Source: Candidatus Omnitrophota bacterium (GTDB lineage: Bacteria > Omnitrophota > Gorgyraeia > 2-01-FULL-45-10). From it: DNA of 37,597 nt. The stretch covers positions 1 through 37,597 of the forward strand of contig JAUYOL010000003.1 of assembly GCA_030695905.1 (NCBI GenBank), given 5' to 3'. Within the stretch, counting starts at the first letter, position 1, and the number at the start of each line of letters is the position of its first letter. Below are positions 2,466 to 27,300 of the stretch, piece by piece. The notes under the pieces were generated by a model. That model was not told the DNA's origin, searched no databases, and saw nothing but the letters and a program-made list of their open reading frames with translations. The position numbers were made by a program, and so were the translations under genes.

Positions 2466-2544
2466 TTATACCATAAAACCCACCGGGAGGGTACATTTTG
2501 TACCCTCCCGGTGGGTAAAATAGGTAAAACGGTTTTCTGTTTAC
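2466..2544. repeat. 79-bp direct repeat with perfect hairpin, copy 2
   Basis: Second identical copy of the element at 2028-2106. Hairpin arms are 2478-2495 and 2499-2516, loop TTT. The TAA stop of the 3678-residue gene (2543-2541) lies inside the repeat, so the element defines the C-terminus of that protein. Confidence 0.9.
2474..2516 (-). terminator. Probable terminator hairpin after the giant gene
   Basis: On the minus strand, 25 nt past the stop of the giant gene, an 18-bp perfect stem with a 3-nt loop is followed by TTTTA. The T tract is short, so termination efficiency is uncertain. Confidence 0.5.
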
Positions 2545-11500: not shown

Positions 11501-13577
11501 AATTAAGCCATCTCTCATTTATATCCTTCTCTCTAAGCATCCTGTCTATTGTTGGGATATTTTTACCGGCACTGTCTCTCATTCTACGATAGCGCTCAAT
11601 GTCTACGGTTACCTTAGCCGGCTTTGCGGCCAATAATTCACGAATGATTTCCGGCGACATCTTCTTTATTTCTACGGCATGTTTTTTTATTGCCTTTACC
11701 GCATTCTGGCCGGGGTTGGTCGCTGTAAATTCCGCTACGGCATTATCCACCGACCTGTTGAAAGCGGCAATTGCGATTTCAGGAGTAAATTCAACGTGCA
11801 TCCTAGCGACATTTTCCCGCGCAATCGGAAGCCATGATTCTATCTGCTTTTTGGCCCATTCCTTAAGATCATCCGTAGCTCTGTCGCTGATCTCACTGAC
11901 GCCTGATAATGTATTTAAATCCATCCTCGCCGCGGTAATAAGGTAAGGCGCGAGCATGCTGTTGACATTCTTCGCGTCAGCTGTAGTAGCTCCTGTATCG
12001 GTCAGTATCTCTTCTAAGGGCGTGCGCTGATTGGTGAGTATCTTTATATAAGGAGTCTCGACATCTTTTGTTATATTAGGGCATACTACTATATATGACA
12101 TCCCCTGCTTTTCTAAAAGTTTTGTTATGCCTTCCGAGTGAAAACCTCCGGTGACGAGAACGGACACCTGCGCGTCCTCTTTCTTCATGGCCTGTATCGT
12201 GTTATCCACCAGCGCCCTATCACGCTTTATCGCTATAGCATAAAAATCTTCCAGTTTTGGCATGCTCTCAACGACGGCCTCGGACGGAGAATCTATCTCA
12301 TACGCAAAACCGAATTTCGTGGCCATCTTATTTATAAATTCGGCAAATATCTCATAAGTAAACTCTTCTTTGTGCTCTTTATAATAATCGAAGTCTCCGT
12401 TCAACAGCCTGATATTTACCAACCCCAGAAGTATATTGATATGGTGCGATAGCTTATCGAGCGTTCTCTGATCATCATTAGCAAATAACTTCTCTTTTAT
12501 CGCATCTTCGAATTTCTTTATATCATTAAATAATTTTTCGTTCTCTATCCTTGAATATACGGAGTTGTAGATTATGTAATTGAATAGATTTGGATATTCT
12601 TCTACGAGGGATATCCCGTACTTTAACGCAAGATTCTTCAAATAATCGTAATATTCCGATGAGGATATCTTGCTGACCTTGAATTCAAGTGATTTATTTA
12701 CCAGCTCTTTTAATTGATCTTTATCGAGCTTTTTCGTAATAGCGTCTATCAATGTGGCGCGTTCTTTATCTACAACGCTAAAATTTATCTTCTTTTCATA
12801 TATAAGCACACTTACGAGCTTAAATAAATTCTCATATTGGCGCAGCGGTATCTTGTGCTGGTTCGCGAGAGTTTCCAGATACTTGACATAGTCGGTGAAA
12901 GACATCTTCTTTGACTCATAATCTTGAGCCTTAGAGTCAAGGTCTTTAAGTTCGGTGCTATAAATATTGGTTTTAAGCTTATTAAGGACCGCCTTTATCT
13001 GGTTAAAATACTTCTCGGTATCTTCTTTTAGTGGGTAACTTGAGGTAAAAGCATTGAGGTTCTCTATATAGTAGGAACGCGTTTCCGCGCCGAATAGCTT
13101 TATTGGGTAATCTGAAGTTATAGCGAGAAATTCAGGGCCTGTTATCTCGCCCTTCTTCATGAAATAGTCGGCGACTTCTTTCCTTATGTCCGCATCGGGG
13201 AATGCCTTAAACCATGAGGTATCAATAAATCCGTCAGCGCCTTCTACTGATATTAAGCTCAAGCCATCGTTTTTGATAAGGCACTCTAATATTTTGATTA
13301 TATTTGACTGCGCTTCATAATTACAGTGAGCGTCCTGGATGTGCACAACAAGTTTTCTGGAGTCTTTGGCTGTATATTTGGCCTTTACAAGGCCATAGTC
13401 ACGGGGAATTACTATCTTTTCGGGATCAGTGGTGATCTGGGCCGATTTTTTAGTGTCCAGGGTGGATGTTTTGGGTATATCGGCTAACGCAATGTTGGAG
13501 AAAATAAAAGAGATGGCGACAACAAGTGATACAACTTTTTTGAATCGCATGCCCGATGGTAAATTTGATAAATTCAT
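2541..13577 (-). CDS. Giant fusion: ChaN/TraB-like, UDPGP, phosphohexomutase, PGI-like
   Basis: A 3678-residue protein in one open frame. The start ATG follows GAGGGGGG and a sigma70-type promoter. Signal peptide about residues 10-33 (FIFSNIALA). Residues ~70-550: possible ChaN/TraB/EreA-like fold (VVHIQDAHCNYEAQ, LISVEGADG, VLVTGGFHSEG). About 700-1130: UDPGP-family sugar-1-P uridylyltransferase (TVLAGGEASRMQKG, ILEENNYYGF, GHGDYYHSHL, NIDNMAL). About 1140-1900: not recognised. About 1905-2540: phosphohexomutase (FGKGYDVRG; serine loop VSGSHGVPQKNG; metal loop DGDTDR; EASGHNF; RWSNTGEELTTIFEG). About 2750-3390: phosphoglucose-isomerase-like SIS domain (DISRSGGTWEG, DIGGRNMHRKTT, HQTNDAMTIPN). 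About 3480-3678: alpha/beta C-terminal domain and tail. Together these could turn fructose-6-P into UDP-glucose (inference). The export signal conflicts with the need for cytosolic UTP. The stop codon comes from the 79-bp repeat. Confidence 0.85.
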   Translation of the reverse strand: MNLSNLPSGMRFKKVVSLVVAISFIFSNIALADIPKTSTLDTKKSAQITTDPEKIVIPRDYGLVKAKYTAKDSRKLVVHIQDAHCNYEAQSNIIKILECLIKNDGLSLISVEGADGFIDTSWFKAFPDADIRKEVADYFMKKGEITGPEFLAITSDYPIKLFGAETRSYYIENLNAFTSSYPLKEDTEKYFNQIKAVLNKLKTNIYSTELKDLDSKAQDYESKKMSFTDYVKYLETLANQHKIPLRQYENLFKLVSVLIYEKKINFSVVDKERATLIDAITKKLDKDQLKELVNKSLEFKVSKISSSEYYDYLKNLALKYGISLVEEYPNLFNYIIYNSVYSRIENEKLFNDIKKFEDAIKEKLFANDDQRTLDKLSHHINILLGLVNIRLLNGDFDYYKEHKEEFTYEIFAEFINKMATKFGFAYEIDSPSEAVVESMPKLEDFYAIAIKRDRALVDNTIQAMKKEDAQVSVLVTGGFHSEGITKLLEKQGMSYIVVCPNITKDVETPYIKILTNQRTPLEEILTDTGATTADAKNVNSMLAPYLITAARMDLNTLSGVSEISDRATDDLKEWAKKQIESWLPIARENVARMHVEFTPEIAIAAFNRSVDNAVAEFTATNPGQNAVKAIKKHAVEIKKMSPEIIRELLAAKPAKVTVDIERYRRMRDSAGKNIPTIDRMLREKDINERWLNLSNVNSATRQIFLLKAVDLLRLAKENDKKISITVLAGGEASRMQKGAMPEVIRQAQAEDPARFGRNEEELPKAKALLPAAKINGRWYTFFEFHMINIKRMNDECEKLGLGRPFIPKFMDNDNYHPIFMKILEENNYYGFDPKGILIFQQPLGQRCLGTEDDLIKNKAAFIKDYGSPAYDAALAYLKSHADYQGLPVNAIPDLNNVPGVAEGHGDYYHSHLIPLAEYDGKTMLEVSDERGVIYDYAHNIDNMALLNEDWLVLLGFMIDRNYSALFEVSKRPTTDAGKGGGFALQGKNPLQVEDDVVKASGFDVMADEARNAKLGLSPINNASIFTLFDFSNGKNVWANNYKWLYDVLAMPHATAAERAKREQALRDLVQRGREKFGIFAAFKPVKLTMTNGTEIVLPTRPYETRAWCIQYGGQDNVGVAMVPSTEDVKAKIGGLTPSIAAIASAPVTPTTRFMPLKKREDYDDLWLQGCREVITKIAIQGQLVSPAFERLVSSQSPAGVARPDDGSRQLTISTEKGARPFTVKSFSHKPVPLVGITDRDIHDNLDRKIRKDYFNKGLVKKLDRRYKIHGLVRRWLSDNWTYGYLLGVFDDLINGTNSYIEKGAKYQPQINILQTNGKPIYTLRDGTQIWGHASDNGIFVADLRDESGKETAALIILELLRFMNVKPNIVGRAYENLTTKYCEEGSFTIDNVLAVDIFLNALDNLNGYEKRPAHLLRGTGIDPISRQIAVATPAAGAIQDSLDKIDLLPLLDGADGGLQDGTAVHISSWFDPVTADAIKILAKDHKAKKFTLGDLVAFIIKNPDECVQRFRLIDDGVFEFGVMKDKTGFNWEASEAFFNGLAITLRESLGQEAAYGVFAEFMKSERLQKLILLDVIAVTLYDDNGEGPVGPDERDSYFSNHPTVYDFFQHLRDSNSLRQGYALKAGYSILRDESVREQLMDVLSRIAPQYAPKQKDGSVGAIRMKGGELTAAEHGARIGRQIETDAKTEDRLRILWNEKSVNAVISRLMRDKNHYAISYVYTGTHHPKEDVQVNLMYVNRYDYKLKALQERLNDLRITFVVIRGLKEELKRAGVAGDLIFHCGISRRATYIDEEDFKYLFDLPNGADIILEGATHEKAHIDNEYANRHDPSVKLLSESEIEREAPSTNVRKAILERSIKNIGTNMDKADMDIVLQAAVNGDVDAYNAIVALPKEKLATYFEQFVTEGLKNIPEDLFGFGKGYDVRGNAQPITGGKVDLTPINVYVIGKLLGTYYAKAGDKILVTGDIRVHTPILRYMLTLGAASVGVSAEYAPDFITTGGHNLLSTENEGNYSLVVQVSGSHGVPQKNGLKIKAYLGKNDQTGRKILEPLYAERLESLYWKNKAKGVRQTGLREKAKTINIKEIGGLAKAVIEMLDKTLPALTKDEIVVIDSRAGAAGAVLMDNLKTGEQGLLTKRGFQIINMDIVAKGDLISEINRLWQTGKPGSRKIAVLLNARPDGNMSRGIWDPSKPEALKDAQELVKLINSNLTEGMPKAIGAVFDGDTDRITGILEDGYGVPAFEMTLPYYQRFLLSESNQEAMIALAKAGFGPIKVVCDVRANSKLLALIDKVNKELQYRANIHNKNIVEGWFITTGYPPQLGFMNNRIAELDEFIASKPELKNNADFMEKFAGLKATYFTAEASGHNFFHISARYPNRVCDCAIAGFITLLSIRESITTREMKNPEKEPLLTNLFANFSVAYSSNEVRVKVPNSVKIAVATDVGNWMFDYYKDRARSMMMGPLKKGHKEDDYDVQPKEDGRITVSGFKVQLADGSAALVRWSNTGEELTTIFEGPNWAGLISIMKEITERLRQETAKGVDVSNLDKEIARLEAIQKEENAGTEKQGAAINSIDVDVASTTKALEIGANIVQGAIAASINKVMLLNDFAESVGIKKDKALENMVKAGMATIVDEKKVTYELTNDFFAATKLNEFVKLQIASSDNPAMVDLTTLRIERIIMNSVDVGKFITTLSAGKASDSIVARLLDENIFPTLMATWKSARASKAATSGATVALAAKDISIPQAAGFYQENGVEVVFNVPANVSVSAAMLEALKGYQAVMGADMARGGYNYRGTGTKQTIEQFFNDYFMKEWYEAIRSFVRDRFNEKEPLEAILTNGIGANDQFMWSLANMYNANKPAGAPTWYHVTTAREFARLVSEGKLKPANSLFIDISRSGGTWEGVEIGIRSVDLGFNKRIALANGGAVKAITMEAARRGGYQPLVIGMSPDIGGRNMHRKTTIYYTAQTVAGMFLPSMDSTKFAALHHQFDTANDFGAPENSLPVSTGRFLQGAMRLLGTEHIAFITNTESLRLVGTEWEQYIMEGSNKEDVISMGAHDLTKEPEYVLQNLANSPAGKISIGMIILDKSAPGYEKHLARVDALKNKMPLMVFTVDSQKAVSEGFKGGISPTQQAAFDILWTDMVTVFTTLLRVDANSNPNVKLVREYTAQRVAKWKEAQAAYDKDAIAGRKGEVLLSYGSPAESKIGSEGNQLVMTQANAAEKGRELAAELVQKGLLNGRNRLNLFTGREDLLDLVSELRNDAYASDLGAKAGWIIQTALFPIWSHKGLEANLAYSDNPEKPLLANRTLNIFFNARKLGPADINDQKFNDIELMVKDKRLYEGINGATIHQTNDAMTIPNIMRMAQVSPTILLEFNDKTENVEAIIKAFYNAFIEELGKQVEINKAQEFRKPQVGSAKPEDGQADIPKAETPASLEGLTETEQAFMNAGLKQVVTDAISRAQTAQELTPETMESIMKQAAGLSSTLSAVSAPEMTKKIVLVGHDTSLDAASNTTARVVEETVNRYLDDTFIEVRASGSNLAAKIQEVAASIAKERNINIKDIFIATVAGDDTVKELTGRPELANLGKVLQIQNKVSDTEMLPVPVIGLYDFILRMAYGQSDEDILACLNRIASKGPNQPFVKEDIDQLLNNIVGLLRIIPKAAPVNMSEVAEINRAAQAVARAL

Positions 13578-13724: not shown

Positions 13725-14888
13725 TTACAGAATCTTACCTTCCCAAAGCTGTTGCAGGAAAATTTCCCATGGCAATACGTCTATCTTGCCATGACGCCTC
13801 TTATCCTTTTCATTGCAGGCAATAATACTTCTTCTAGGAGAATATTCGCTGATAAACGCGTCCAAGCCGCTGGTGTCCTTTTTATCAACCCGGGCCGATC
13901 CTTTTATCTCTACGGCAACTTCTCCCGATCCCAACACAAAATCCACCTCAAGCCCTGTTTTTGTTCTCCAAAAATTTATCGCAAAGTCCTTACTCACATA
14001 GGATCTATACGCAAGGATCTCCATAAGCATAAAATGTTCGAATGCCTTGCCAAATTCCTCGCCCTTCTCTTCCGATAAATACCTATTGGTAAGGTATCCG
14101 GAAACCCCCACATCGAACATATAATATTTCGATGCCTTAGTTATAACCTTACGGGATTGCCTTTTTTTGAACGGTTCTATCCTTACAGCCAGCATAGTGT
14201 CTTCAAGTATCCGATAGTACTCTTTAACCGTTTTTGAATCAACGCCGCAATCGCGGGCAATATTGCAATAGTTTGTTATATGCCCATGCGAATATCCAAA
14301 AGCATCGAAGAATCTTGAGAAAGCGGGAATATTTCGCGTCAGGCCTTCGGCAAAGACTTCCTCCCGCAAATAATCCTGAACGTAAGCCTTAAGGGATTTT
14401 TTGCAATCCTCGTCATTCTGTAGATAATGCGTGGGGATAAGACCATGATTCAAAGCGCGCAAAAGATCTATCTTACCTATCTCTCTACTGACGAGCGGAA
14501 AGAGCTCGTACCGCCACGCCCTTCCGCCAAGCAGATTAGCGTGCCCTCTTTTGAGTTTTCTCGCGCTTGAACCGCAAAGAATAAAACTCAAATCTGTATT
14601 CTCTATGAGCCAATGCACCTCATCCAGAGCCTGAGGAACCTTCTGCACTTCATCGAGTATCACAGGCCCTCTAAGTTCCGACTTTTCCTTCGCGAGCAAC
14701 CGTTCGCGTAACAAAGATGGATGCTTCGAAATCTCCAGAAATAAGTCCGACTTCAAAAAATCAAATACGACACTATCCGGAAACCTCTCCTTAAGATAGG
14801 TGGTCTTACCTGTTTTTCTCGCTCCCCATAAAAATGCGGATTGCCGCCGCGGAAGCTTTATATCCAATATCCTTTTTATGTTTTTCAT
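13725..14888 (-). CDS. AAA_14/DUF4143 family ATPase
   Basis: A 387-residue P-loop ATPase with the two-part AAA_14 plus DUF4143 architecture. Seen: Walker A GARKTGKTT (22-30), Walker B VILDEVQK (76-83), sensor-like CGSSARKLKR (105-114), a helix-turn-helix-like segment about 208-232 (ARDCGVDSKTVKEYYRILED), and a PD-(D/E)XK-like strand pair EVDFVLG...VAVEIKG (314-330). Length is normal. The family is common in mobile and genome-defence contexts but its biochemical role is not established to my knowledge. It has its own promoter with a perfect palindrome over the -10, and its predicted DNA-binding segment makes autoregulation plausible (inference). It is a diverged paralogue of the next gene upstream. 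Confidence 0.88.
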   Translation of the reverse strand: MKNIKRILDIKLPRRQSAFLWGARKTGKTTYLKERFPDSVVFDFLKSDLFLEISKHPSLLRERLLAKEKSELRGPVILDEVQKVPQALDEVHWLIENTDLSFILCGSSARKLKRGHANLLGGRAWRYELFPLVSREIGKIDLLRALNHGLIPTHYLQNDEDCKKSLKAYVQDYLREEVFAEGLTRNIPAFSRFFDAFGYSHGHITNYCNIARDCGVDSKTVKEYYRILEDTMLAVRIEPFKKRQSRKVITKASKYYMFDVGVSGYLTNRYLSEEKGEEFGKAFEHFMLMEILAYRSYVSKDFAINFWRTKTGLEVDFVLGSGEVAVEIKGSARVDKKDTSGLDAFISEYSPRRSIIACNEKDKRRHGKIDVLPWEIFLQQLWEGKIL

Positions 14889-14901
14889 ATAAGATGCGCA
14901 T

Positions 14902-14953
14902 CCATTTTAGCATTACTAAAATGGAGTATGCTCCATTTTAGTCAAACAGTCAA
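14902..14953 (-). promoter_or_regulatory. Promoter with perfect palindromic operator-like site
   Basis: On the minus strand TTGACT (14953-14948), a 17-nt spacer, then CATACT (14930-14925). A perfect 12-bp inverted repeat (arm ACTAAAATGGAG at 14915-14926, partner 14931-14942, 4-nt centre) covers the -10. A third half-site, CCATTTTAG, sits at 14902-14910 toward the start codon. The layout suggests repression by a dimeric DNA-binding protein, perhaps the ATPase itself. Confidence 0.65.
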
Positions 14954-14970
14954 GTAAAAAAATGGTATTT

Positions 14971-16128
14971 CTATTTTTTCCCGAACATCCCTTTCATCCC
15001 GCCAATAACTGTTTCAAGCGGGATAACCTCGACTTGCTTGTGCAGTGAATACCTTTGTTTTCCCGGATACACCACAGCGATGCGCGATAGCTTTAAATCA
15101 TGCAGGGCTATCCTCATGGAAGGCATTATTGCCGGAGCGTCGGCTCTCTTACACTCAACGCCATACATTTGTCCTTTCTTTCTAAATACCAGATCAATTT
15201 CCGCGCCATTGTGAGTGGCCCAGAAATAAACATCATCCGGCTCAACAGCATTAATAACCTCCTCTATAACATAACCCTCCCATGAAGCACCAAATTTCGG
15301 ATTGGCCGATAGATCACCCATAGTTCTTATACCTAAGAGGCTATGCAGTATGCCTGTATCGCGAATATAAATTTTTGGCGCTTTGACCTGCCGCTTTTTA
15401 ATATTAGCGTGCCAAGGCTGCAATTGCCGCATCATAAATACTCCGGAAAGAATATCCAGGTACCTGCGTATAGTGGGCTCGCTGACCCCCAAGGAACCGG
15501 CAAAAGTAGCAGCATTCCATATCTGCCCATGGCTATGTGCCAGCATTGTCCAAAATCTATGCAATGCAATTATCGGCACAGCAATACCCTGTTGCCGAAG
15601 GTCCCTCTCAAGGAATGTTTGAATGAAGCTCTTGCGCCATAAAAAACTGTCGGAATCGTTCTTTGCTAAAAACGATAATGGAAATGTCCCGCGCAGCCAA
15701 AGACGAGAGGACTGTTTACTCCCAACTTCATCAAGACTAAACCCACCCATAACAATTATTTCGATGCGCCCGGCCAGGGTTTCAGAAGATTGTCTCAAGA
15801 GTTCGGGGGAGGCACTTCCTAAGATAAGAAATTTGGCAGGTAAAGGTTTTCTATCAAGGAGAACCCGGAGAACAGGAAATAGCTCTGGACGCCGTTGCAC
15901 CTCATCAATAACCACAAGGCCATTCAAATGGCCCAAGGCTGACTTGGCATTGTCCAGCCGCATGGCAGTTTCAGGATCTTCGAGATCAAAATAATTAGCA
16001 GATGCAGTATCGGCGAGTTCGCGTGCCAGAGTTGTCTTCCCGCATTGGCGGGGCCCTAATAAAACGACGGCGCGGCTTCTCCTTAACGCCTCCTGGACAT
16101 TTTCTTTAAGCTTTATTCTCTCGATCAT
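14971..16128 (-). CDS. AAA_14/DUF4143 family ATPase (second copy)
   Basis: A 385-residue paralogue of the 387-residue ATPase. Seen: Walker A GPRQCGKTT (25-33), Walker B VVIDEVQRR (72-80), sensor-like LGSASPELL (103-111), a helix-turn-helix-like segment about 206-226 (TFAGSLGVSEPTIRRYLDIL), and a PD-(D/E)XK-like GAEIDLVF...YGVECKR (308-328). Length is typical. A strong promoter ends 6 nt before the ATG, so the mRNA may be leaderless, and I see no Shine-Dalgarno sequence. Inverted repeats flank the -35. It lies between its paralogue and an AbiE toxin-antitoxin pair. The molecular function is unknown; a defence or selfish-element role is suggested by context only. Confidence 0.88.
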   Translation of the reverse strand: MIERIKLKENVQEALRRSRAVVLLGPRQCGKTTLARELADTASANYFDLEDPETAMRLDNAKSALGHLNGLVVIDEVQRRPELFPVLRVLLDRKPLPAKFLILGSASPELLRQSSETLAGRIEIIVMGGFSLDEVGSKQSSRLWLRGTFPLSFLAKNDSDSFLWRKSFIQTFLERDLRQQGIAVPIIALHRFWTMLAHSHGQIWNAATFAGSLGVSEPTIRRYLDILSGVFMMRQLQPWHANIKKRQVKAPKIYIRDTGILHSLLGIRTMGDLSANPKFGASWEGYVIEEVINAVEPDDVYFWATHNGAEIDLVFRKKGQMYGVECKRADAPAIMPSMRIALHDLKLSRIAVVYPGKQRYSLHKQVEVIPLETVIGGMKGMFGKK

Positions 16129-16134
16129 ATCAAA

Positions 16135-16179
16135 AGTTTACCATGAAATTCGAATATGTCAAGTTATATTTTCATGGTA
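16135..16179 (-). promoter_or_regulatory. Promoter and inverted repeat; likely leaderless start
   Basis: On the minus strand TTGACA (16162-16157), a 16-nt spacer, then TAAACT (16140-16135). Only 6 nt separate the -10 from the ATG at 16128, so transcription should begin at or next to the start codon. Perfect 10-bp arms TACCATGAAA (16139-16148) and TTTCATGGTA (16170-16179) bracket the -35, as expected for an operator. Confidence 0.6.
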
Positions 16180-16187
16180 TATAATAA

Positions 16188-16212
16188 CAAAAATCCCCGG
16201 CGCGGCTTTTGC
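16188..16212 (-). terminator. Possible weak terminator after the AbiE-like pair
   Basis: On the minus strand, after the toxin stop, a GC-rich segment (GCCGCGCCGGGG) is flanked by CAAAA and ATTTTTG. It can fold into an imperfect stem ending in a T run. Pairing is poor, so this is tentative. Confidence 0.3.
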
Positions 16213-16225
16213 ATATTTCTATTTG

Positions 16226-16885
16226 TCAATAGCGAGCTAAAATCTTTTCGCGAAGGAAAGAAAACTTGTTCGACATATAATACCTTCTGGCATCCGGTTC
16301 AAGTAATGAGCCAAGAGTTACACTGAAATCCGCGGCCTTAAAGGAGCTCATGAGCTTGAGCAGTTTCTCCGAATCACCGCGGGAGGCTTTGATGGCCACT
16401 CCTTTTCTCGCCATAAACTCCATATCATAGAAATCTCTTATTTCATGACGCTCCAAAGCGGCTTCTATTTTATTTTTCATCATTTGCTCTAAAGTATGCA
16501 CCTTTAATATCACCTGTTTTGAGGCGAACTTTGAAAAGGCGATCCTCTCTTCTATATCACAGGGCTTCATCTCTTTTCTTATCTCTATTTTGAGCTTTTT
16601 GGGATAACCTTTGACGCGCAATTCCAGTAAAATCGTATAATATGTTAATTTGGCATCGGTCAATTCATAGCGCTGTTCCAGGTGCTTTTTGAGCTTTTCG
16701 AAATATGCCCCGGGGTCGGTTTTTTTCACAAACCAGAAATTCAGATCAACGGAATAGCGGTTCAGCTCATAGCACAGCCTGAGCATAGTGCCGCCTCCGA
16801 ATACCAGCGGATCGAGAAACTTGCCGCTATTCATGCTGTCAAGAGTTTCAATTTCTAATATCTCATGTTTTTGCAATATATCCAT
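16226..16885 (-). CDS. abiEii: AbiEii-like nucleotidyltransferase toxin
   Basis: A 219-residue member of the AbiEii/DUF1814 nucleotidyltransferase family, the toxin of type IV AbiE toxin-antitoxin and phage-abortive systems. Seen: nucleotide-binding motif VFGGGTMLRLCYELNRYSVDL (28-48, R43, S45 and D47 in place), EIRKE strand, and the C-terminal family signature HTLEQMMKNKIEAALERHEIRDFYD. One oddity: the usual S-x-D-x-D pair reads S-V-D-L-N, so the second metal-binding aspartate is Asn49. The toxin may therefore be weakened or inactive. The start overlaps the end of abiEi by 23 nt in another frame, with only a weak ribosome site, so translation is probably coupled. Length is short but within family range. 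Confidence 0.82.
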   Translation of the reverse strand: MDILQKHEILEIETLDSMNSGKFLDPLVFGGGTMLRLCYELNRYSVDLNFWFVKKTDPGAYFEKLKKHLEQRYELTDAKLTYYTILLELRVKGYPKKLKIEIRKEMKPCDIEERIAFSKFASKQVILKVHTLEQMMKNKIEAALERHEIRDFYDMEFMARKGVAIKASRGDSEKLLKLMSSFKAADFSVTLGSLLEPDARRYYMSNKFSFLREKILARY

Positions 16886-17456
16886 ATCTTTTTAAAATCT
16901 CTTTCGTTTTTTCTGGAAATTTTCCGGCCATCGTTTTGATTTTCGCCAAATTCAACCTGGTGCGGTCTATGGAGCTTAAATCAAGACTATATCTTTTGAG
17001 GCTCATAAGGTAAACGGCATCCAGGAATGCTTTTTCGGGGGTTGCTATAAAAAAATCTTTTTCTTTTATGAATCCAAAATAAAGTTCTTTTTGTATTTTA
17101 GTAAAATTTAAAACTGTATCCGATACCCTGACTGTTTTTGTGCGTTTTATGGCAACCGATTCAAGAAAAAAGCGCTGCATCTGTGTCGTTATCTCATAAT
17201 AATCCAGGGCGCTCATTAAGGATATATATGAAGGGACCTGGGCAATGTTCGCGATGGCAAATTTTTCTTCTCTCGTAAATACATCCCACCTGTCGACCAG
17301 GACATAGAAGCCTCTTTTTACCCTCAGCAAAATACCCTGCCGGACATACCTGGTGGCGAAAACTCTTGCTGATTCAGGCGTTATGTCGAGGATTTTGGAT
17401 ATATCCTCATATCCAAAATATGGCTTTTTTATACCCTTTAATACTGTATAATTCAT
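16863..17456 (-). CDS. abiEi: AbiEi-like antitoxin and autorepressor
   Basis: A 197-residue AbiEi-type antitoxin. Seen: an N-terminal winged helix (about 15-55: YEDISKILDITPESARVFAT, then RVKRGFYVL), the family segment YISLMSALDYYEI, and the C-terminal domain with FFIATPEKAFLDAVYLMSL. Family knowledge: AbiEi represses its own operon by binding inverted repeats with the winged helix and counteracts AbiEii. Gene order (antitoxin first, overlapping toxin) matches. A near-perfect 17-bp palindrome lies immediately upstream and touches the ATG, fitting autoregulation. The first ATG after an in-frame stop is used, with AGG 7 nt upstream as ribosome site. Confidence 0.85.
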   Translation of the reverse strand: MNYTVLKGIKKPYFGYEDISKILDITPESARVFATRYVRQGILLRVKRGFYVLVDRWDVFTREEKFAIANIAQVPSYISLMSALDYYEITTQMQRFFLESVAIKRTKTVRVSDTVLNFTKIQKELYFGFIKEKDFFIATPEKAFLDAVYLMSLKRYSLDLSSIDRTRLNLAKIKTMAGKFPEKTKEILKRYGYIAKT

Positions 17457-17516
17457 AAGTATACCTAGTTAACATATTTGTTAACTAAGTATACTTGATA
17501 AATCTGCCTTTGTCAA
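17457..17516 (-). promoter_or_regulatory. abiE-like promoter with 17-bp inverted-repeat operator
   Basis: On the minus strand TTGACA (17516-17511), an optimal 17-nt spacer, then TATACT (17493-17488). Inverted repeat arms 17457-17473 and 17480-17496 (core AAGTATAC...GTTAAC) pair over 17 bp with one mismatch and a 6-nt centre. The distal arm covers the -10; the proximal arm abuts the ATG. The mismatch is where the proximal arm reads CTAGG instead of CTAAG, supplying the AGG ribosome site. Confidence 0.75.
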
Positions 17517-17543
17517 GTAGGGGAATAATGCGTGTTCATGGTA

Positions 17544-17825
17544 TTACAGTTGCCTGAGAAGCCTTCTGATTTCATCATGGTTGCCGTAAGCTATAAGCTC
17601 GATGAGGTCGCTATGTTTTCGTAGTAATATACGCCGATTCGAGACGGTGCTTATCTCGAAGTAATTATCCTTGCCGCTTAACTTCCTCACCCGCAAGTCG
17701 ACAAACATCATATCTTTGTTGTAATAGTTGAATAGCTCTCGAATCTTCTCATTAATCTGAGCCTTCTCAGAGTGGGGGAGTTTCTTATAGACTCGGCCGA
17801 AGGACGGCTTGATATTGATTCTCAT
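17544..17825 (-). CDS. RelE/ParE-like toxin
   Basis: A 93-residue basic protein with the RelE/ParE toxin layout: N-terminal SFGRVYKKLPHSEKAQINEKI helices, a central strand block VRKLSGKDNYFEISTVSNRRILLRK, and C-terminal LIELIAYGNHDEIRRLL. Family members cleave mRNA on the ribosome or poison gyrase; which applies is not decidable here. It begins 7 bp after the end of the AbrB-type antitoxin gene, which closes with two tandem TAG codons, giving the usual antitoxin-toxin order. Length is typical. The stop lies about 87 bp upstream of the abiE promoter region. Confidence 0.8.
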   Translation of the reverse strand: MRINIKPSFGRVYKKLPHSEKAQINEKIRELFNYYNKDMMFVDLRVRKLSGKDNYFEISTVSNRRILLRKHSDLIELIAYGNHDEIRRLLRQL

Positions 17826-17832
17826 ACGTCTA

Positions 17833-18117
17833 CTATGCCTTATGGAGGTGCTTTATGGCGGCATCCGCGCTATGGAACGTCTTGCCCTTGGCGGAAGCGA
17901 GCTTTTCTATCTTCTTCCATTCTTTCGACGTATAGGGATTCTCTTCTTTTATAGTCGTCGTGACTCTTACGAGCATAAACCCGTGGTTAGCAGGCTTGAA
18001 AGCGATTTCCGAGCCTTCCTTTAGGCCAAGCATCTCCCGCACCATCCTCGGTATGGTAGTCTGGCCCTTTGACGTTATGTGTGAAACATAGTAACGGCCC
18101 CTGTCTAGTGTCTTCAT
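17833..18117 (-). CDS. AbrB/MazE-type antitoxin
   Basis: A 94-residue protein with a SpoVT/AbrB swapped-hairpin DNA-binding domain at residues about 11-45 (SHITSKGQTTIPRMVREMLG, then EGSEIAF). The C-terminal ~45 residues (TSKEWKKIEKLASAKGKTF...AIKHLHKA) probably wrap the toxin. Family knowledge: such antitoxins bind their own promoter and neutralise the partner toxin. Here the partner is RelE-like. Start ATG at 18117 follows a good AAGGAG site. The leader contains 8-bp tandem repeats and a near-palindrome that could be its operator. Confidence 0.85.
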   Translation of the reverse strand: MKTLDRGRYYVSHITSKGQTTIPRMVREMLGLKEGSEIAFKPANHGFMLVRVTTTIKEENPYTSKEWKKIEKLASAKGKTFHSADAAIKHLHKA

Positions 18118-18141: not shown

Positions 18142-18194
18142 TTACTTCCTTACTTTCTTACATACAAGTATATCATATTATCGAAAACTGTCAA
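18142..18194 (-). promoter_or_regulatory. Antitoxin-toxin promoter with 8-bp tandem repeats
   Basis: On the minus strand TTGACA (18194-18189), a 16-nt spacer, then TATACT (18172-18167). Just downstream are three 8-bp units (plus strand TTACTTCC, TTACTTTC, TTACATAC; 18142-18165) and a near-palindrome ATACTTGTAT. These are candidate binding sites for the AbrB-type antitoxin. Confidence 0.6.
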
Positions 18195-18239: not shown

Positions 18240-18281
18240 TTACGCCGCTTGAAGCGCGGTCTGCTCGGCTGCGTATGTGCT
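18240..18281 (-). other. In-frame 13-codon extension after the TAG stop of the HEAT gene
   Basis: Directly after the TAG (18284-18282) the same frame continues for 13 sense codons to a TAA (18242-18240). The encoded peptide, STYAAEQTALQAA, nearly matches the last residues of the adjacent radical SAM protein (NTYAAEKTALQAA). Either the TAG is a recent nonsense mutation that removed the native tail, or it is read through. Confidence 0.7.
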
Positions 18282-19988
18282 CTACGCGGACCAGAGGACT
18301 TCAACTGATTGTCTCATTGCCCTGTATACGGTTATTGGCAAGGCTTTTAATATCGTCTTTATCAATCTATCCGCGTTGGTAACTATGCCTTCTATGTAAT
18401 TCTCGACTGACAGCTCTTCCGGCATATAGTCCTCCAAAAGATGGGAAAGCATACGATAGGTCGGACTTCCCTTGTCCTGAAAGTCTTCCGGCGTTATGAC
18501 TCTGGTGAGAAGTAAAATGCTAAATATATCGGCTTCATAATTATCGAGTTCATCAGAAGTCATTTTGTCTATATCGTCCATTTTCGCAAAATTCATGAGC
18601 CTGAGTTCAGAGGCCTGGTCTTTCAATAACCGTAAAATTCCGGCATCGACATCGCTAATACCGCTTGTCATGATTATGGATTTTGCGGGAGTTTTTATCA
18701 TTGTTTGCAAGTCTTCGACATACTGATAGACTCTTAGGCTGCCGCCAATTGATTCAATTATCGCTCTGTATCGGCCTGTAGTATTGCCCGGGAACTGCGA
18801 TTTCGGAATAAATATTTCCACCCCTGCCTCTTTTATGCGGGAAACCATTAAACGAATATCGTCATCAGAGGGCTTACTATATCTACTCATTTTAGCTTGT
18901 GCCCGCGGCTTTGATACCGGTTGGGTTGCGGGCTTCGTAACGGCTTGAGGAGCAGGTTTGGCGGCATTCGCTTTTTTGATTTCTTTGATGGCTTCTTTTG
19001 CGGCTTCACGAATGCCAGCATCTTTATCTTCTTGCAGTATTTTGACGAGAAACGGGATTGTCTGTCTGTCGCCTATCCTGCCCAGAGCCAGGATAGCGGA
19101 ATTTTGAACAACTCTATTATCATATGCGTTACTAATGCCCAGGGCCTTAAACTGATTAACATCCAATCCTGTAAGCCTGGCAAGATCCAACTTAATATTT
19201 CCGGATCTGTCTTTCGCAATGTAGTCCTGGACTTTTTTGCTCACTACTGCCTCTTTTATCGCCGTCAAGCCCTTAATATCCGCGTCTTCTGTGAGTAATA
19301 CCCTGAATATCACATTTTTGCCATTTCTTATAACTACGATATCCGCCCCTCGCATACCACCGTAATTCGGCATTGTCCAAGATAATAAGAATTCATTGTA
19401 TATAACATTGTTATTACTATCATATTGTATATTCTGGTATTGTTTAACTATAATTACATGGCCCTGCGCCTTCATATCCGCAGCAGATTTAAGCTGATCC
19501 GAAGCCGAGAATTCTCGAATGCCGCAATCTTTGTCTTTCAGTATCATTTCAATGAGAGCTGGGACTGCTTCCTTGCCAATGTTAATAATGGAAGTTATCG
19601 CATCCTCACGTATCTTCTCGTCATCAGCGCTTAATCTTCTTATATGATACCTTATCATCATCTCTTTGTTTTCGTACAATTGAGGCGCAGGCTCTTGCGC
19701 AAGCGGACGCGGACTTTCCCCTGCCTTTGCACTATGGCTATATCCGCCTATGGCTGTAACAGTCGCGAGAACTATTGGTATGGCTTTTTTAAATGGGCTT
19801 TTTCTTTTCCGCTCTTTTTTCACGCCCATCATGATCTGGGCAGCATCTTTGAATTCTTCACCATTAAGACTCGAGAAGCTGCTTGGCGGAGACAATTTAA
19901 AGGAACTGATCTCCGACGCAAAGGAAATATTCGAAAAAGAAAAGACAATTAAAATAACAAACGCCAATACTTGTTTTATAGACTTCAT
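18282..19988 (-). CDS. Exported HEAT-repeat protein, tail truncated by TAG
   Basis: A 568-residue protein with an ideal ribosome site (GAGGAGGGGAA) before the ATG. Signal peptide about 1-25 (SNISFAS), then LSPPSSF, and a second hydrophobic segment about 68-88. HEAT/PBS-lyase-like repeats lie at about 106-150 (VPALIEMILKDKDCGIRE) and 296-340 (ILALGRIGDRQTIPFLVKIL, EDKDAGIREAA). They are separated by an unrecognised beta-rich region of ~145 residues. A Pro/Ala linker (about 343-370) leads to a ~195-residue alpha/beta C-terminal domain (AKSIIMTSGISDVDAGIL) resembling those of three other proteins here. HEAT repeats imply a binding or scaffolding role; no catalytic motif seen. It starts 13 bp after the radical SAM gene, so it is probably co-transcribed. 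The TAG stop removes the shared tail (see 18240-18281). Confidence 0.75.
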   Translation of the reverse strand: MKSIKQVLAFVILIVFSFSNISFASEISSFKLSPPSSFSSLNGEEFKDAAQIMMGVKKERKRKSPFKKAIPIVLATVTAIGGYSHSAKAGESPRPLAQEPAPQLYENKEMMIRYHIRRLSADDEKIREDAITSIINIGKEAVPALIEMILKDKDCGIREFSASDQLKSAADMKAQGHVIIVKQYQNIQYDSNNNVIYNEFLLSWTMPNYGGMRGADIVVIRNGKNVIFRVLLTEDADIKGLTAIKEAVVSKKVQDYIAKDRSGNIKLDLARLTGLDVNQFKALGISNAYDNRVVQNSAILALGRIGDRQTIPFLVKILQEDKDAGIREAAKEAIKEIKKANAAKPAPQAVTKPATQPVSKPRAQAKMSRYSKPSDDDIRLMVSRIKEAGVEIFIPKSQFPGNTTGRYRAIIESIGGSLRVYQYVEDLQTMIKTPAKSIIMTSGISDVDAGILRLLKDQASELRLMNFAKMDDIDKMTSDELDNYEADIFSILLLTRVITPEDFQDKGSPTYRMLSHLLEDYMPEELSVENYIEGIVTNADRLIKTILKALPITVYRAMRQSVEVLWSA

Positions 19989-20001: not shown

Positions 20002-23000
20002 TTATGCCGCTTGCAGCGCTGTTTTCTCAGCCGCGTAGGTATTTTTTAGAATCTCGTAGTCTTTCGGTTCTGCTCTTGGCAGGAATATGACAATCCTCAT
20101 CTTTTTATCGTAAGACACGATTATCTGAAGTTGGGGTGGCTCTTTACCTGCCGCGAGTTCAAGCGACGTATAAAGCAGGCTCGTCAATCTTATATAAAGC
20201 TGTTTAGTTGTCGCCTCTCCAAATTCCTCATAGAATCTAATGAGTTCCGTAGGGTCAATGCCTGCAAGAAACGGCCTATCGTTTTCGGGCGCATTCCTTA
20301 AAGGCTCGAAACTGGCGGAATTTATTGTATTGACCGACGCCATGACAACAATGTTGTGCATATTAGCATTGCTGTCTTTAGCGGCTTTTGTCAGCAATCC
20401 GGCCAGATCGCCACCGCTTCCATGGATGATCTCAATATTATCCAGCCCCATAGATCTCAACGCTCCAGCGATTTCATCTATCTCTTTCATGAGCGCACTT
20501 AATGCCTGCTTCTGCAGACTGCTTTTTACGCTCAGGCCCGGTATCCAGTCTGTTTCAAGGCCTATGATGAGTTTTTGGTTCTCCCTGGCTGCCCTTCGGG
20601 CAAGAATGATCAGGGATGCCACTCCGCCATCCGCTTCGAATTGGGCAAAATTTTTCTTTAAAGATTCTATTGCCGCTTTTGTTTCAGCCGAAACTTTTTC
20701 CTGCTCCAACACTTCAATGATCGATATGGCGCGTTCAACCTTTTCCCTTATTTCGGTTACCGTCATATCCTTATCAAGACTGGCGTTAATCTTATTACCT
20801 GTTTCTATGAATTTGACGCGCTCATTATTCAGCACCGACTCGACAAGGTTGAAAAGCTGTGTCGCTTTGTTTTCTGCTACCGGAGGCGGCATAAATTCAT
20901 TGCCATGGAATTCGGGGTCGAGCGTTATCTGTTTTATTTCAGTATTCTTATGTTCTTCTGTCATACCGTCTGCCACGGCCGCAATAGCCGGTTTCTTTGT
21001 TTCGACCTGCTTGCGGTCTGCTAACATTTTCCAGGACTCCAATAAATAAACTAAAATGCCTGCCCAGATGATCCCGGCATTGGCATCAAATAGAACTATA
21101 CAATCCGATTTGACTGCCAGCCCTATCAACTGGATGGGAAAGAACCAGACAAAATTTAATCCGGACACGCGTAAGCTTGACTTCACCGCACTCCAAAATC
21201 CCGGGGTCGGCTCGCCTTTAGAAACAAAATATTTCTGTGCAAGGAACTCAAGCGGAATAAATACGAGCGACGCATATAAACCCAAGTCAATGAGAGGAAA
21301 TAATATATCCGCCCCTTGGGTCAACCTCCATAGATATGGGAACCATATGCCATAAGTGAGCGGTCCTATCAATATCGCCCCGACAACTGCCCACTTCCAT
21401 GTCTTGGTCCAATTGATCGATTCTCCTCTTGCGGTCTGTGCCATATAATTACCGGCACCCAATGTTATGCCGCCTATGATAGTCGCAGCAATTGTTGCCT
21501 TCCAGGTAAAGGACTTAACTACGAATAGGGAGGCATAAAAATCACTGAAAAAATAAGATAGGGTAATGGTGATTACCGGAACAGCCAATAACTTAGTGGC
21601 GCGAGAAATTGCTTTTATGCTAAAAGTTTTTCCCTGAACACTTATCTCCGTTACAGGCGCGGATATTGCAACTTTCGGCCCTTCTCTTGCCTCAGCAGTA
21701 TCTGTACCAATCAACGGCTGGTCTTCCAAACATACACCATCATTACCGTCCTTGATAAGTTTCCCTAAAACGACATTAAGGTTCCTCTCGTGATATAGGC
21801 AGAAGGGGCACCGGTCGCCATCGTATGTGTTCTCTTTTTTCATACTACGCGCTATTACGCTGCGCAGATCCTCTACCGCCAAATTCCCTGTCTCCAGATC
21901 TTTTCTGGCATTTTGCGGATGTTCTGCATATTCACAGTAATATGTCCTGCCAAAAGGATTGACGCCCAATTTCAGAAGTCGTGCCCTGCAAGTTGTCGCT
22001 TCGGCGTCCTCTATATCATATAACTTTTCTCCGGTAAGCGTTTCTATGTCCATTCCCGGCGTAGCATAATTCATGTTCGGAAACTTGCCATCTTCCTTCA
22101 ACTTTTTTAGCTCTTGAGACATCCGTATTATCTCAAGGGCTTCTTGCTCAGTAAACATTCTAACTTTTTTAAAGTTACCCGGGCGCTCGTTTTTTTGATC
22201 CGGGAAAAATCTGACGGCGAAAAAGAAGTCCACGCCTATTTCGTTTGCCAATTTGGCCATTTCAACAAGGTCTTTGTAATTTTCTGGAACAAGAATGAAC
22301 GATATACCTATCTTGCATTTCGACCCAATCTCATTCCTTCTTTTAACAAAAGCCTTAACCTTTGAAATCACTCTATCAAATTGGTCTACACCATGCACAG
22401 CCTTGTACGTTTCTTTCGTAGCGCCATTTATACTAAACCGTACCCACGCCGCATTGAGCACTTTATCAAAGTCGTCTTGCCTTAAGCTAATACCGTTATT
22501 AAAAACATGCGTTTCCAGCCCTATCTCTTTTGCGGCATATTCTACGACATTTGCTGTACCTGTATGAATAAATGGTTCTTGCCCACCGGAAATCCAAAGC
22601 TGCCGACCTCCATTGTCAGCAAACTCCTTAGCTAATTCTTTCATTCTTGACAAGGTTAATACAGGCCAGCTCTTTTCTGTCCCTTCATATTTAAATCCGA
22701 CGGAGCCACACATAACACAGGAGCTTGGGCATACTTTACCGGGGTGCAATTCCAATATCATTGGATAAACCAATTCTCCTTTAACTATTTTGGACAATCT
22801 GTCTGGATCTTCCGACACCATCTTGAGCTCATTCATAAAACCAGGATTCACAGACTTGGCAGCTCTGATTATGAACTGCCGTAATTTGGGTTGAGAATTG
22901 ATACGCCTGTAAAGCTTAATGAGCTCTTCTATATCTATCCCTAGCCGAGAAGCGATGATCGAGCTATCCAAATATGGTTTTGCCCCCAAAAGATCAACCA

Positions 23001-23679
23001 GCTCGTCCATGTTCCATTTTGGCGCTTGTGGCGAATCCGTGGGTTTTTTCTCTCCTACTCTTGTCTCAACTGTTAACGCGGACGTTGTCATTATCGCCCA
23101 CGATCCCCCATAATTTTCGGGCAACTCTTTTACAACATATCTATCAGACACGAACCACTCATAACCAATCAAGTTCTTAGAGGCAACGTTGCTCCTTAAC
23201 GCTATCTGCACAACGCGTTTTTTATTTTTAATCTTGCAGGGGATCAACACAGCATCATTTTTAACCACTACTCGTGATAAGTCTATACCTCCCACGGCCT
23301 TGCCGAGCTCTGCTGTCATGACTTGTTCCAAATATTTGATGGGCAGGTTGTCTTCTAATAAATATTTACCAATACTGCAGACGGAGCCTAATAACTCGGC
23401 CTGGGAAAATATCGATTGTTGAAATCTTGCGGCGTGCTCGGCTATGGGCACCTGTTGTAAACCAGAAGGGACGGCAAGTGTAGAGTTAGCGTCATTATGT
23501 TCGGGTGGATACGCCCATGCTATATCCAGCGCGATAAAGGTAACTGCTAAGATAGCAGCAACTGTTTTAAACAAAATTCTTTTATAAACATTAAACAAAA
23601 GCGCCAAACTGAATCGTTTCGGTTTGGCGCGTAAATTCGAAATTTTGTCTTTTATACGTTTTAGTTTACATCTATGCAT
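20002..23679 (-). CDS. Radical SAM/SPASM fusion with membrane domain
   Basis: About 1225 residues. A signal-anchor (TVAAILAVTFIALDIAWA) opens the protein. Radical SAM domain: cluster motif CPSSCVMC (about residue 317) and ISGGQEPF. SPASM-like cysteines follow (TTCRARLL, YYCEYAEHP, CPFCLYHE; about 565-625). A four-segment membrane domain (about 695-890) resembles Mpv17/PMP22 by eye (GAGNYMAQ, IGPLTYGIWFPYLWRL, NFVWFFPIQ); tentative. About 1000-1225: alpha/beta C-terminal domain ending IFLPRAEPKDY...TALQAA. Radical SAM/SPASM enzymes often modify peptides; no substrate peptide is visible. ATG at 23679 is chosen because GGGA lies 8 nt upstream and it clears the previous stop; a GTG at 23703 would overlap the HD-GYP gene by 11 nt. 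Confidence 0.82.
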   Translation of the reverse strand: MHRCKLKRIKDKISNLRAKPKRFSLALLFNVYKRILFKTVAAILAVTFIALDIAWAYPPEHNDANSTLAVPSGLQQVPIAEHAARFQQSIFSQAELLGSVCSIGKYLLEDNLPIKYLEQVMTAELGKAVGGIDLSRVVVKNDAVLIPCKIKNKKRVVQIALRSNVASKNLIGYEWFVSDRYVVKELPENYGGSWAIMTTSALTVETRVGEKKPTDSPQAPKWNMDELVDLLGAKPYLDSSIIASRLGIDIEELIKLYRRINSQPKLRQFIIRAAKSVNPGFMNELKMVSEDPDRLSKIVKGELVYPMILELHPGKVCPSSCVMCGSVGFKYEGTEKSWPVLTLSRMKELAKEFADNGGRQLWISGGQEPFIHTGTANVVEYAAKEIGLETHVFNNGISLRQDDFDKVLNAAWVRFSINGATKETYKAVHGVDQFDRVISKVKAFVKRRNEIGSKCKIGISFILVPENYKDLVEMAKLANEIGVDFFFAVRFFPDQKNERPGNFKKVRMFTEQEALEIIRMSQELKKLKEDGKFPNMNYATPGMDIETLTGEKLYDIEDAEATTCRARLLKLGVNPFGRTYYCEYAEHPQNARKDLETGNLAVEDLRSVIARSMKKENTYDGDRCPFCLYHERNLNVVLGKLIKDGNDGVCLEDQPLIGTDTAEAREGPKVAISAPVTEISVQGKTFSIKAISRATKLLAVPVITITLSYFFSDFYASLFVVKSFTWKATIAATIIGGITLGAGNYMAQTARGESINWTKTWKWAVVGAILIGPLTYGIWFPYLWRLTQGADILFPLIDLGLYASLVFIPLEFLAQKYFVSKGEPTPGFWSAVKSSLRVSGLNFVWFFPIQLIGLAVKSDCIVLFDANAGIIWAGILVYLLESWKMLADRKQVETKKPAIAAVADGMTEEHKNTEIKQITLDPEFHGNEFMPPPVAENKATQLFNLVESVLNNERVKFIETGNKINASLDKDMTVTEIREKVERAISIIEVLEQEKVSAETKAAIESLKKNFAQFEADGGVASLIILARRAARENQKLIIGLETDWIPGLSVKSSLQKQALSALMKEIDEIAGALRSMGLDNIEIIHGSGGDLAGLLTKAAKDSNANMHNIVVMASVNTINSASFEPLRNAPENDRPFLAGIDPTELIRFYEEFGEATTKQLYIRLTSLLYTSLELAAGKEPPQLQIIVSYDKKMRIVIFLPRAEPKDYEILKNTYAAEKTALQAA

Positions 23680-23692
23680 AGAAATATCCCAT

Positions 23693-24256
23693 TTAATACA
23701 CACTCAAAAACGCATTTACCACTGCCGGGTCGAATTGTGTGCCGGCGCATCTTTTTAATTCGGCAACAGCGACGTCCTTCGTCATGGCTTTGCGATACGG
23801 CCTGTCATTGATCATGGCATCGTATGCGTCCGCGACAGATATGATGCGGGAGCCGATAGGGATACTCGTGCCCATCATGCCCGGATCGGGATAGCCGCCG
23901 CCGTCAAAACGCTCGTGGTGGTGCCTTACTATGGGAATTATTTCATTGAGAAAGCCCAGCTGTTTTATTATGTTAGCGCCTATATCCGGATGCATGCGGA
24001 CCTGCTGCCATTCGTCAATAGTTAATTTAGCGGGCTTTTTTATTACAGTCAGATCTATTCCGATCTTACCTATATCATGAAGCATGCTCGCTATCTTTAT
24101 TACTTTAACATCCCTGACCGGAAGTCTTAATCCCCTGCATATCAGTATGGAATGTTGCTCCACTTTGTAACAGTGCCGGCGCCTGCAGGCATCGCTGGAG
24201 TCAATTAACCGGGCGAGTTTGCTGACAGTCTTAATGTAGTTTGGTTTTATTATCAC
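23693..24256 (-). CDS. HD-GYP domain phosphodiesterase
   Basis: A 187-residue stand-alone HD-GYP domain, the family that degrades cyclic di-GMP. Seen: MLHDIGKIG (58-66), HPDIG (89-93), RHHHERFDGGGYP (111-123), and SVADAYDAMINDRPYR (140-155). The catalytic metal ligands of the HD core appear complete. There is no sensory or receiver domain. The start is GTG at 24256 with AAGGAG 5 nt upstream. It precedes the radical SAM and HEAT genes with a gap of only about 13 bp, so a shared transcript is likely. Control of polysaccharide production by c-di-GMP is common in bacteria, which would suit the neighbouring glucan-type genes (inference). Confidence 0.9.
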   Translation of the reverse strand: MIIKPNYIKTVSKLARLIDSSDACRRRHCYKVEQHSILICRGLRLPVRDVKVIKIASMLHDIGKIGIDLTVIKKPAKLTIDEWQQVRMHPDIGANIIKQLGFLNEIIPIVRHHHERFDGGGYPDPGMMGTSIPIGSRIISVADAYDAMINDRPYRKAMTKDVAVAELKRCAGTQFDPAVVNAFLSVY

Positions 24257-24380: not shown

Positions 24381-27300
24381 TTATGCTGCCGTGCGTATTA
24401 TCTCAATGGCCTCTATATACGACCTTATTTCTTTTTCATAATCTATCGGGATCGCGCGCGGCAAATATTTGAATATGCCCCGCACGTCATCTTTTGATAC
24501 ACCCGGTATTATTATCTCCCCGGTGCCGGCAAGCACTATTTTCAGCAATACCTGATATGAATTCATGGCAGGATACATCTCTTGGCCATTCATATCTATG
24601 GGCTGTATTTCAAGGAGTTTGCTTTTAGCGACTTTTTCGTCGGCAAACTCACCTGCCGCGGCCCTAATACCGATGCTTTCCGCCTTCAAGCCTGTCTGAA
24701 AAGCGGCTATTTCGGCAACTATATGCTCATACTTTTTGCCTCTCTTATCGATAAATCGCAGATCATCAATATTACCCCTATACCCGCACGCCTTTACAAA
24801 TCTCTTCGCGGAATCGATATCTTTTAAGGTATCACCATATATGAATACGTTGACTATGCCCTGCTTTTGGGCTGTTTCGATATTGTCGAACGTAAACGGA
24901 TCAAATTTCGCGATCTTTTCGGTGGTAGCCACTGCTATCCTGTTATCATAATTGACGGTCTTATCTATGGCCATACCATTATAAATGCCGGCTATTTCGT
25001 GTTTGCGCTTAGCGATGAGTTTTTGTATCGCGGGAATCTGGCTTGCCAGCTCCGGCCGCGCGGCCAATACCTCCTGGGCCCGGTTAAATATATCAGCAGC
25101 GTTAACGCTCGCGATATTAGGCAGAATTGCCTTTATTGCCGCCGATAACTCTTCACGCGTATTGACGCTTACGTCATTCATGGTAAGAAGAATTTCATAA
25201 TCTACGGCTAACTTCGCCGCTTTAATATCTCCCACAAATTTCCGCGGGCTGTCTATATAGAAAATATCTTTTATAAATATGCCTCTGAAATTCCTGGCTT
25301 TGGCCAATTTAGCAAATTCATTTTCATCCATTCTCGCTACTTCCAGATTAGCCCCCGCTGCCATGAGGGCTTCCCTGACTCTTTCTTCCATAGCATCGAA
25401 TGACCCGTTTGCCGGTATACCTATAATAACATTCGGCTCCGCACGGGCCGGCTGCAACACCTCGGCTACCTTTAGTAAGGATAAGAGATAGACTCCCTCG
25501 AGACCTACCACAAGAGCCCATATGCCAATCTGTAACGGCACACTATGGATAAATGGAAGAATAGCAATCGCGATCAATGGCACCAGGAACGCCAAAAGAG
25601 GCGTAATCGCCATGCCGGGCCTTGATAGTGGCAATGTTTTCAGCACCCCGTTTCTGGCCAATATCAATTGCAGCGTACGCAATGAACGCTCTTCTTTCGG
25701 CGGATTTGCCAGTTCACTCTCGCTGCGCGGGGCAGACTCGCGCGTAACAATATCATGTATCTTCCTATCCTGGTAAATCCTATCAAAAATACCTATAACA
25801 ATATTATTCGCGACGTAATCTACCGAGCGCGGGCCTACTTCATCTACCGCGTCGGCAAGAAATGTGTCAATTCCCGCATAATCTTCCTCAACAATATTTC
25901 TCAAGAAAACATTAACATGAGGTACCCTATAGCCTGACATGCTCAAACTAAGCGGAACCTCGCCTTCTTTGATACCTAATTTCTTCATCTTCTTTGCTAT
26001 AAATAACTCGAAACCGTACCAGCTCGCCATCTCTCCGCATATTGATAATTCTTTGCGGGGCATGCCTTCAGCAGCTCTCTCCCTATTTTCATCACGTATA
26101 GTTTCGATAATAGCGGCTATCTTTTCCAGCACAACCGGCTGCAGGCGGGATAGATACTGCTTATCCAGCGGGTTATCCCTGTCCAACTTTCCATCTTTCC
26201 TGCCAAGAGCCTTACCTATAACATAGCTCGAAAGGTCATTCGTGCCTATAGAATAGAAGTCTATCTCATTGACGGCCGCGAGTAATTTAATATTATCGAC
26301 CGCCACGGATGTTTCTACCATTATTCCTTTTTTGATACTGTTGATCCTGCCTATAATGGCATGCGCTTTTTTAACATCATAGCGCGCGTCTTGCGTTATT
26401 GGGGTAGATCCCATCACGACATTTAACCTCGCGGATGCCCATACAGACTCGTCTCTGGTTATCAGATATCCGACATCATCTATGCTGCTTACCATCGGAA
26501 ACATCACCTTAAGATTATCAACGCCTAAGAGACGGGCTTCCATTATGGCTTCAAGCTGAATGAGCAAAATGTCTCTGCCCAAAGGTGACTTGTAAAATTC
26601 CATTCCGCTTAAGTTTTTAACCTTCTGGAGTATAAGGTTCTTTTTATCCGGCTGAAGATCAAGAGTCCTTATTGTAACAGGCGCGCCTTGAGCAGCCCGC
26701 GCGATTCTCAAGAAATATTCCCGCAGGTGATCCTTTAGTTGTTCACGCTTCTCTTCGGCGGGAGATTCAAGGTATTCCCTGACTATTCTATTGCCCTTAA
26801 TGTCAGGCCTTTGGGGTTCAAAAATGTTTTCATCCGTAAATAGGTATTCTGTCCTCACGAGGCCCACGCCCGCGGCCTTGTATTTTTCAATACCCTCCTG
26901 TATCTCGGTTTCGCTATCCGCGTTAACATATAAGCTGGTAGTAGTCTCTGTCTGGCCTATTGGGACATTCTCACATCTATCTTTTGTCTGCTGCATGGCA
27001 AATGTATCAAACGCCACTTCCCGCAGCAATATGCCATAAGAAACTTTTACCGTGGACAAGCTGGGACGAAGAACAACCTCTCCATTTCCAGCCACGTCGG
27101 ACCGCATAAGAACCATGCGGGAAATTACCTTGCCCTTACGGGCCTTGCTCTCTTTTATAATCCTGGATATTTCATTGATGAAAGCCTTGCTATTCGGCAC
27201 ACCCTTGACCTTAAGGCTATCCGGCACATCAATAACGATAACAGGAATACCCTTATTTTTCGCATATATAGCGCCATGCGAGGTAGTTGCACCTTCAACC

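Follow-up and report, generated by a model that had tools for sequence, protein, structure and literature searches.

The question raised by this locus is why a protein-like sequence should stand directly behind a stop codon, in the frame of the gene that the stop codon closes. In a window of 37,597 nucleotides (the whole stretch of DNA that was analysed) from a Candidatus Omnitrophota bacterium, the gene of a HEAT-repeat protein ends in TAG, beyond which its frame stays open for a tail resembling the end of the adjacent radical-SAM gene. An earlier note had described this arrangement, which proved to be real, and had proposed that the tail was translated as part of the HEAT protein until recently or is still made by readthrough or amber recoding. 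The comparisons presented here favor another origin: the peptide behind the stop most likely represents the last 13 codons of an otherwise deleted neighbouring gene. That the tail is the scar of a recent deletion of a second gene with the C-terminal domain called A, the TAG being the normal HEAT stop, was given a probability of about 87%.

The end of the HEAT gene

The HEAT gene and its C-terminal part comprise the following features.

18282..19988, minus strand: gene of the HEAT-repeat protein (568 aa), complete (open reading frame; Pfam HEAT_2, E 8e-13; C-terminus aligned with five relatives)
18284..18282, minus strand: TAG of the HEAT gene, assigned as its natural stop
18285..18830, minus strand: C-terminal domain B of the HEAT protein (182 aa; homologues in genomes G070, G261, G191, G080 and G019; conserved end VEVLWSA and stop)

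On the minus strand, the 3' end of the HEAT reading frame encodes VEVLWSA followed by TAG (TGG TCC GCG TAG). Domain B, for which no Pfam family was matched, gave strong scores in five relatives among the 292 genomes of the class searched; additional weak matches were left out of the comparison of the HEAT ends. The identity to the window domain is 68% for G070, 44-46% for G261, G191 and G080, and 33% for G019, and an extra search of genome contigs returned four of the same relatives and none closer. The C-termini of the five relatives (VEVLWAA, VEVLWSA, VEILWSA, VEILWSV and VAILWSA) are level with that of the window protein. Since all five end at this place, with TAA and without any tail behind it, the TAG is regarded as the natural stop of the HEAT gene, and no HEAT extension would have been lost. 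Judged from the aligned sequences, its position is the ancestral end of the protein, the third base alone having changed with respect to the TAA of the relatives.

TAG is also an ordinary stop codon in the window, as it terminates 4 of the 13 genes. The glycoamylase gene (118-1404) does stop at TAG and the antitoxin gene (17833-18117) at tandem TAG TAG codons (17830-17835), as had been noticed earlier. Conserved sequence was not found behind the TAGs of the glycoamylase, antitoxin and ATPase genes.

The tail and its domain-A origin

The sequence behind the HEAT stop has its counterpart in the C-terminal domain of the radical-SAM gene.

18240..18281, minus strand: putative orphan remnant, the last 13 codons and TAA of a domain-A gene, STYAAEQTALQAA and stop (11/13 identical to the radical-SAM gene end)
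20002..23703, minus strand: radical-SAM gene (1233 aa), the C-terminus of which is an intact domain A closing with NTYAAEKTALQAA-TAA (Pfam Radical_SAM, E 8e-12; domain-A homologues)
20005..20601, minus strand: C-terminal domain A (199 aa; homologues and alignment), ending LPRAEPxDYExLKxxYxAEKxALxAA and stop

Within the class, 17 of 147 genomes carry domain A, whose only Pfam match is a weak, sub-threshold one to Smr. This module of about 200 aa (20005-20601 in the window; L051, L052, L067, L053-L057 and L070) is common to otherwise different large proteins, and its carriers often adjoin each other, in the source genome as in related ones. One copy in G041 (L076, G041:C10:21713-22261) is interrupted by an in-frame TAA within the matched region, close to the conserved end, so that truncated domain-A tails may occur elsewhere too. 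Two stretches of G141, both close to contig starts (L117 and L112, at G141:C52:335-370 and G141:C24:208-243), carry nearly identical last codons of domain A with the stops TAG and TAA, respectively.

The tail reads, on the minus strand, AGC ACA TAC GCA GCC GAG CAG ACC GCG CTT CAA GCG GCG TAA; its 13 sense codons, which share the HEAT frame, span 18281..18243, and the TAA follows at 18242..18240. Of its residues, 11/13 are identical to those of the radical-SAM end. When all 3,564 stop codons in the six frames of the window were considered, the next best match of a post-stop sequence to any domain-A tail was 5/13, which places the resemblance far beyond chance; among 75,112 segments of 13 residues, the best match besides the two tails themselves was 6/13. 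In the genome, TALQAA followed by a stop occurs at two places only, behind the HEAT stop and at the radical-SAM end. Searched as a degenerate DNA pattern in 26 family genomes, none of the same genus as the source genome, the tail motif was found at 11 places, 10 of which close an open A domain. The sole orphan is the one behind the HEAT stop, where 2 open codons alone separate the TAG from the motif, the HEAT coding sequence lies directly upstream and the rest of the A gene is missing. A terminator search at the tail returned a single terminator-like site, which does not exceed the number in shuffled sequences.

The tail differs from the radical-SAM tail at 10/39 bases, distributed over the codon positions as 1, 1 and 8 (binomial P 0.003), and from the end of the second A gene of G070 (A2) as 3, 2 and 10 (P 0.009). 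Against the first A gene of G070 (A1), the bias was not significant. As 8 of the 10 differences to the radical-SAM tail fall at third positions, the tail would have been coding until recently, in another gene than HEAT. The pattern of substitutions indicates that the fragment evolved as protein-coding DNA over most of its history. The loss of its gene would thus be recent, although a fragment of 13 codons is too short to be dated. Of the former proposal that the HEAT tail was translated until recently, the coding past is therefore retained; its attribution to HEAT is not, given the common end of the five relatives.

The same protein-level constraint could be expected if the HEAT protein had acquired the tail from its neighbour and then been cut off from it by a recent nonsense mutation at the TAG. 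The shared frame, the lack of any stop in between and the 11/13 identity to the neighbour all agree with such a history. It is nevertheless unlikely. All five HEAT-B relatives stop here, so that a sense codon at the TAG would be the novelty, and there is no reason to expect an A tail on domain B, as the two domains showed no significant similarity when their profiles were compared (probability 0.5%). The same comparison spoke against deriving B from A by divergence and duplication of the last helix, and this idea was dropped. A frameshift ahead of the TAG that would restore a different frame was rejected as well, nothing like domain A or B being found in the other frames.

Gene order in relatives

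The surroundings of the tail contain two conserved flanks and an insertion.

24381..37505, minus strand: 4374-aa giant gene, conserved upstream flank (C-terminal relatives upstream of an A gene in G070, G041 and G012)
2541..13577, minus strand: 3678-aa giant gene, conserved downstream flank (relatives in G070, G041 and G133 directly preceded by an A-domain reading frame)
13725..18117, minus strand: inserted island with a PrlF/MazE-like antitoxin, a ParE-like toxin (weak match), AbiEi/AbiEii and two AAA_14-DUF4143 ATPases (Pfam)
18167..18194, minus strand: promoter-like TTGACA-16-TATACT (11/12), presumably that of the antitoxin

The order in the window is 4374-aa giant gene, HD-domain gene, A gene (radical SAM), HEAT-B gene, 13-codon tail, island, 3678-aa giant gene, HAMP gene and glycoamylase. 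In G070 it is 4374-like giant gene, A1, HEAT-B, A2, 3678-like giant gene, HAMP gene and glycoamylase; the intact A gene that follows HEAT there ends NTYAAEKTALMAA and is itself followed by the 3678-like gene. The order is 4374-like, A and 3678-like in G041; an A-domain reading frame, seemingly in two pieces, precedes the 3678-like gene in G133, and HEAT-B directly precedes it in G261. A second, intact A gene behind HEAT, in the succession A, HEAT, A, was thus met in a single relative, G070. The island is compact and defence-like and is absent from the corresponding interval in G070, G041 and G261.

Set against the order of G070, the tail takes the place of the A2 end, which is most simply explained by a deletion that spared only the last 13 codons of A2. 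Trees of the C-terminal and N-terminal parts of domain A disagree at weakly supported forks and did not show which A copy of G070 corresponds to the radical-SAM gene of the window, or which copy was lost.

The following course of events is proposed. A second domain-A gene would once have separated the HEAT gene from the 3678-aa giant gene, an arrangement that G070 has kept. In the source lineage, a deletion starting at or just past the HEAT stop would have reached to 13 codons before the end of the A gene, joining its tail directly to the HEAT stop. That the joined tail lies in the HEAT frame would be a one-in-three coincidence. The TAG may itself have formed at the joint, the HEAT stop supplying TA and the preceding A-gene codon G. 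The tail would now be untranslated.

A chimera of the HEAT 3' end and an A-gene tail could also have been created during assembly, as the source genome is a draft of 43 contigs and domain-A genes exist in multiple copies, at which contigs break in relatives, e.g. in G141. Such an artefact is very improbable: the tail DNA differs at 10/39 bases from the only other TALQAA-stop copy of the genome and hence was not copied from the radical-SAM end during assembly, and the remaining gene order is as in G070.

Decoding of the HEAT stop codon

Least probable of all is that a share of ribosomes passes the TAG, by readthrough or recoding, and makes a minor HEAT form with the tail: the open frame and the undecayed tail that fit it are equally expected of a recent remnant, while several other window genes end in TAG, none of the five relatives has the tail past its HEAT stop and the RNA near the stop folds in no unusual way (z -1.2). 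The decoding machinery points the same way. RF1 (prfA) is intact, with a score of 483 bits, above the cut-off. The suppressor tRNA whose search had been recommended was not found, none of the 44 tRNA genes having a CUA anticodon; the genome is 97.5% complete and the Arg-TCT tRNA is missing from the set found, so that this set may lack a few members. Nothing supports recoding, and this part of the earlier note was abandoned. It is just as remote that low-level readthrough of the TAG has, since the deletion, been supplying some of the HEAT protein with a functional domain-A tail. If true, the added tail could serve e.g. as a localisation or turnover signal common to A-domain proteins.

Comparison with known systems

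The finding is best read as an ordinary gene remnant. It calls for caution, as a conserved peptide past an in-frame stop may be the last piece of a neighbour lost by deletion, lying in the same frame by chance; comparison of orthologues, together with gene order, separates such a remnant from a true post-stop extension. It also illustrates turnover in a conserved Omnitrophota locus of adjoining genes with a common C-terminal domain. The giant genes of 3678 and 4374 aa that flank the locus are, like the giant reading frames described for the phylum, large, but measure 11 and 13 kb, whereas the published ones exceed 20 kb and have few annotated domains (PMC10066038).

With programmed stop-codon readthrough and amber suppression, the locus shares an open frame and protein-like sequence past the stop. 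In contrast to readthrough genes, the stop and extension are not conserved in the five relatives, and in contrast to amber-recoding genomes, a CTA anticodon is absent from the 44 tRNAs and prfA scores over the cut-off. The likeness is closer to the deletion scars and 3'-terminal pseudogene fragments of bacterial genomes, in which a short, recognisable gene end stands where a relative has the intact gene. Here, too, the tail is homologous to an intact family, the rest of the gene is missing and an intact copy occupies the same place in G070. It differs from usual gene remnants in being very short, at 13 codons, and in lying by coincidence in the frame of the upstream gene, which makes it mimic a readthrough extension.
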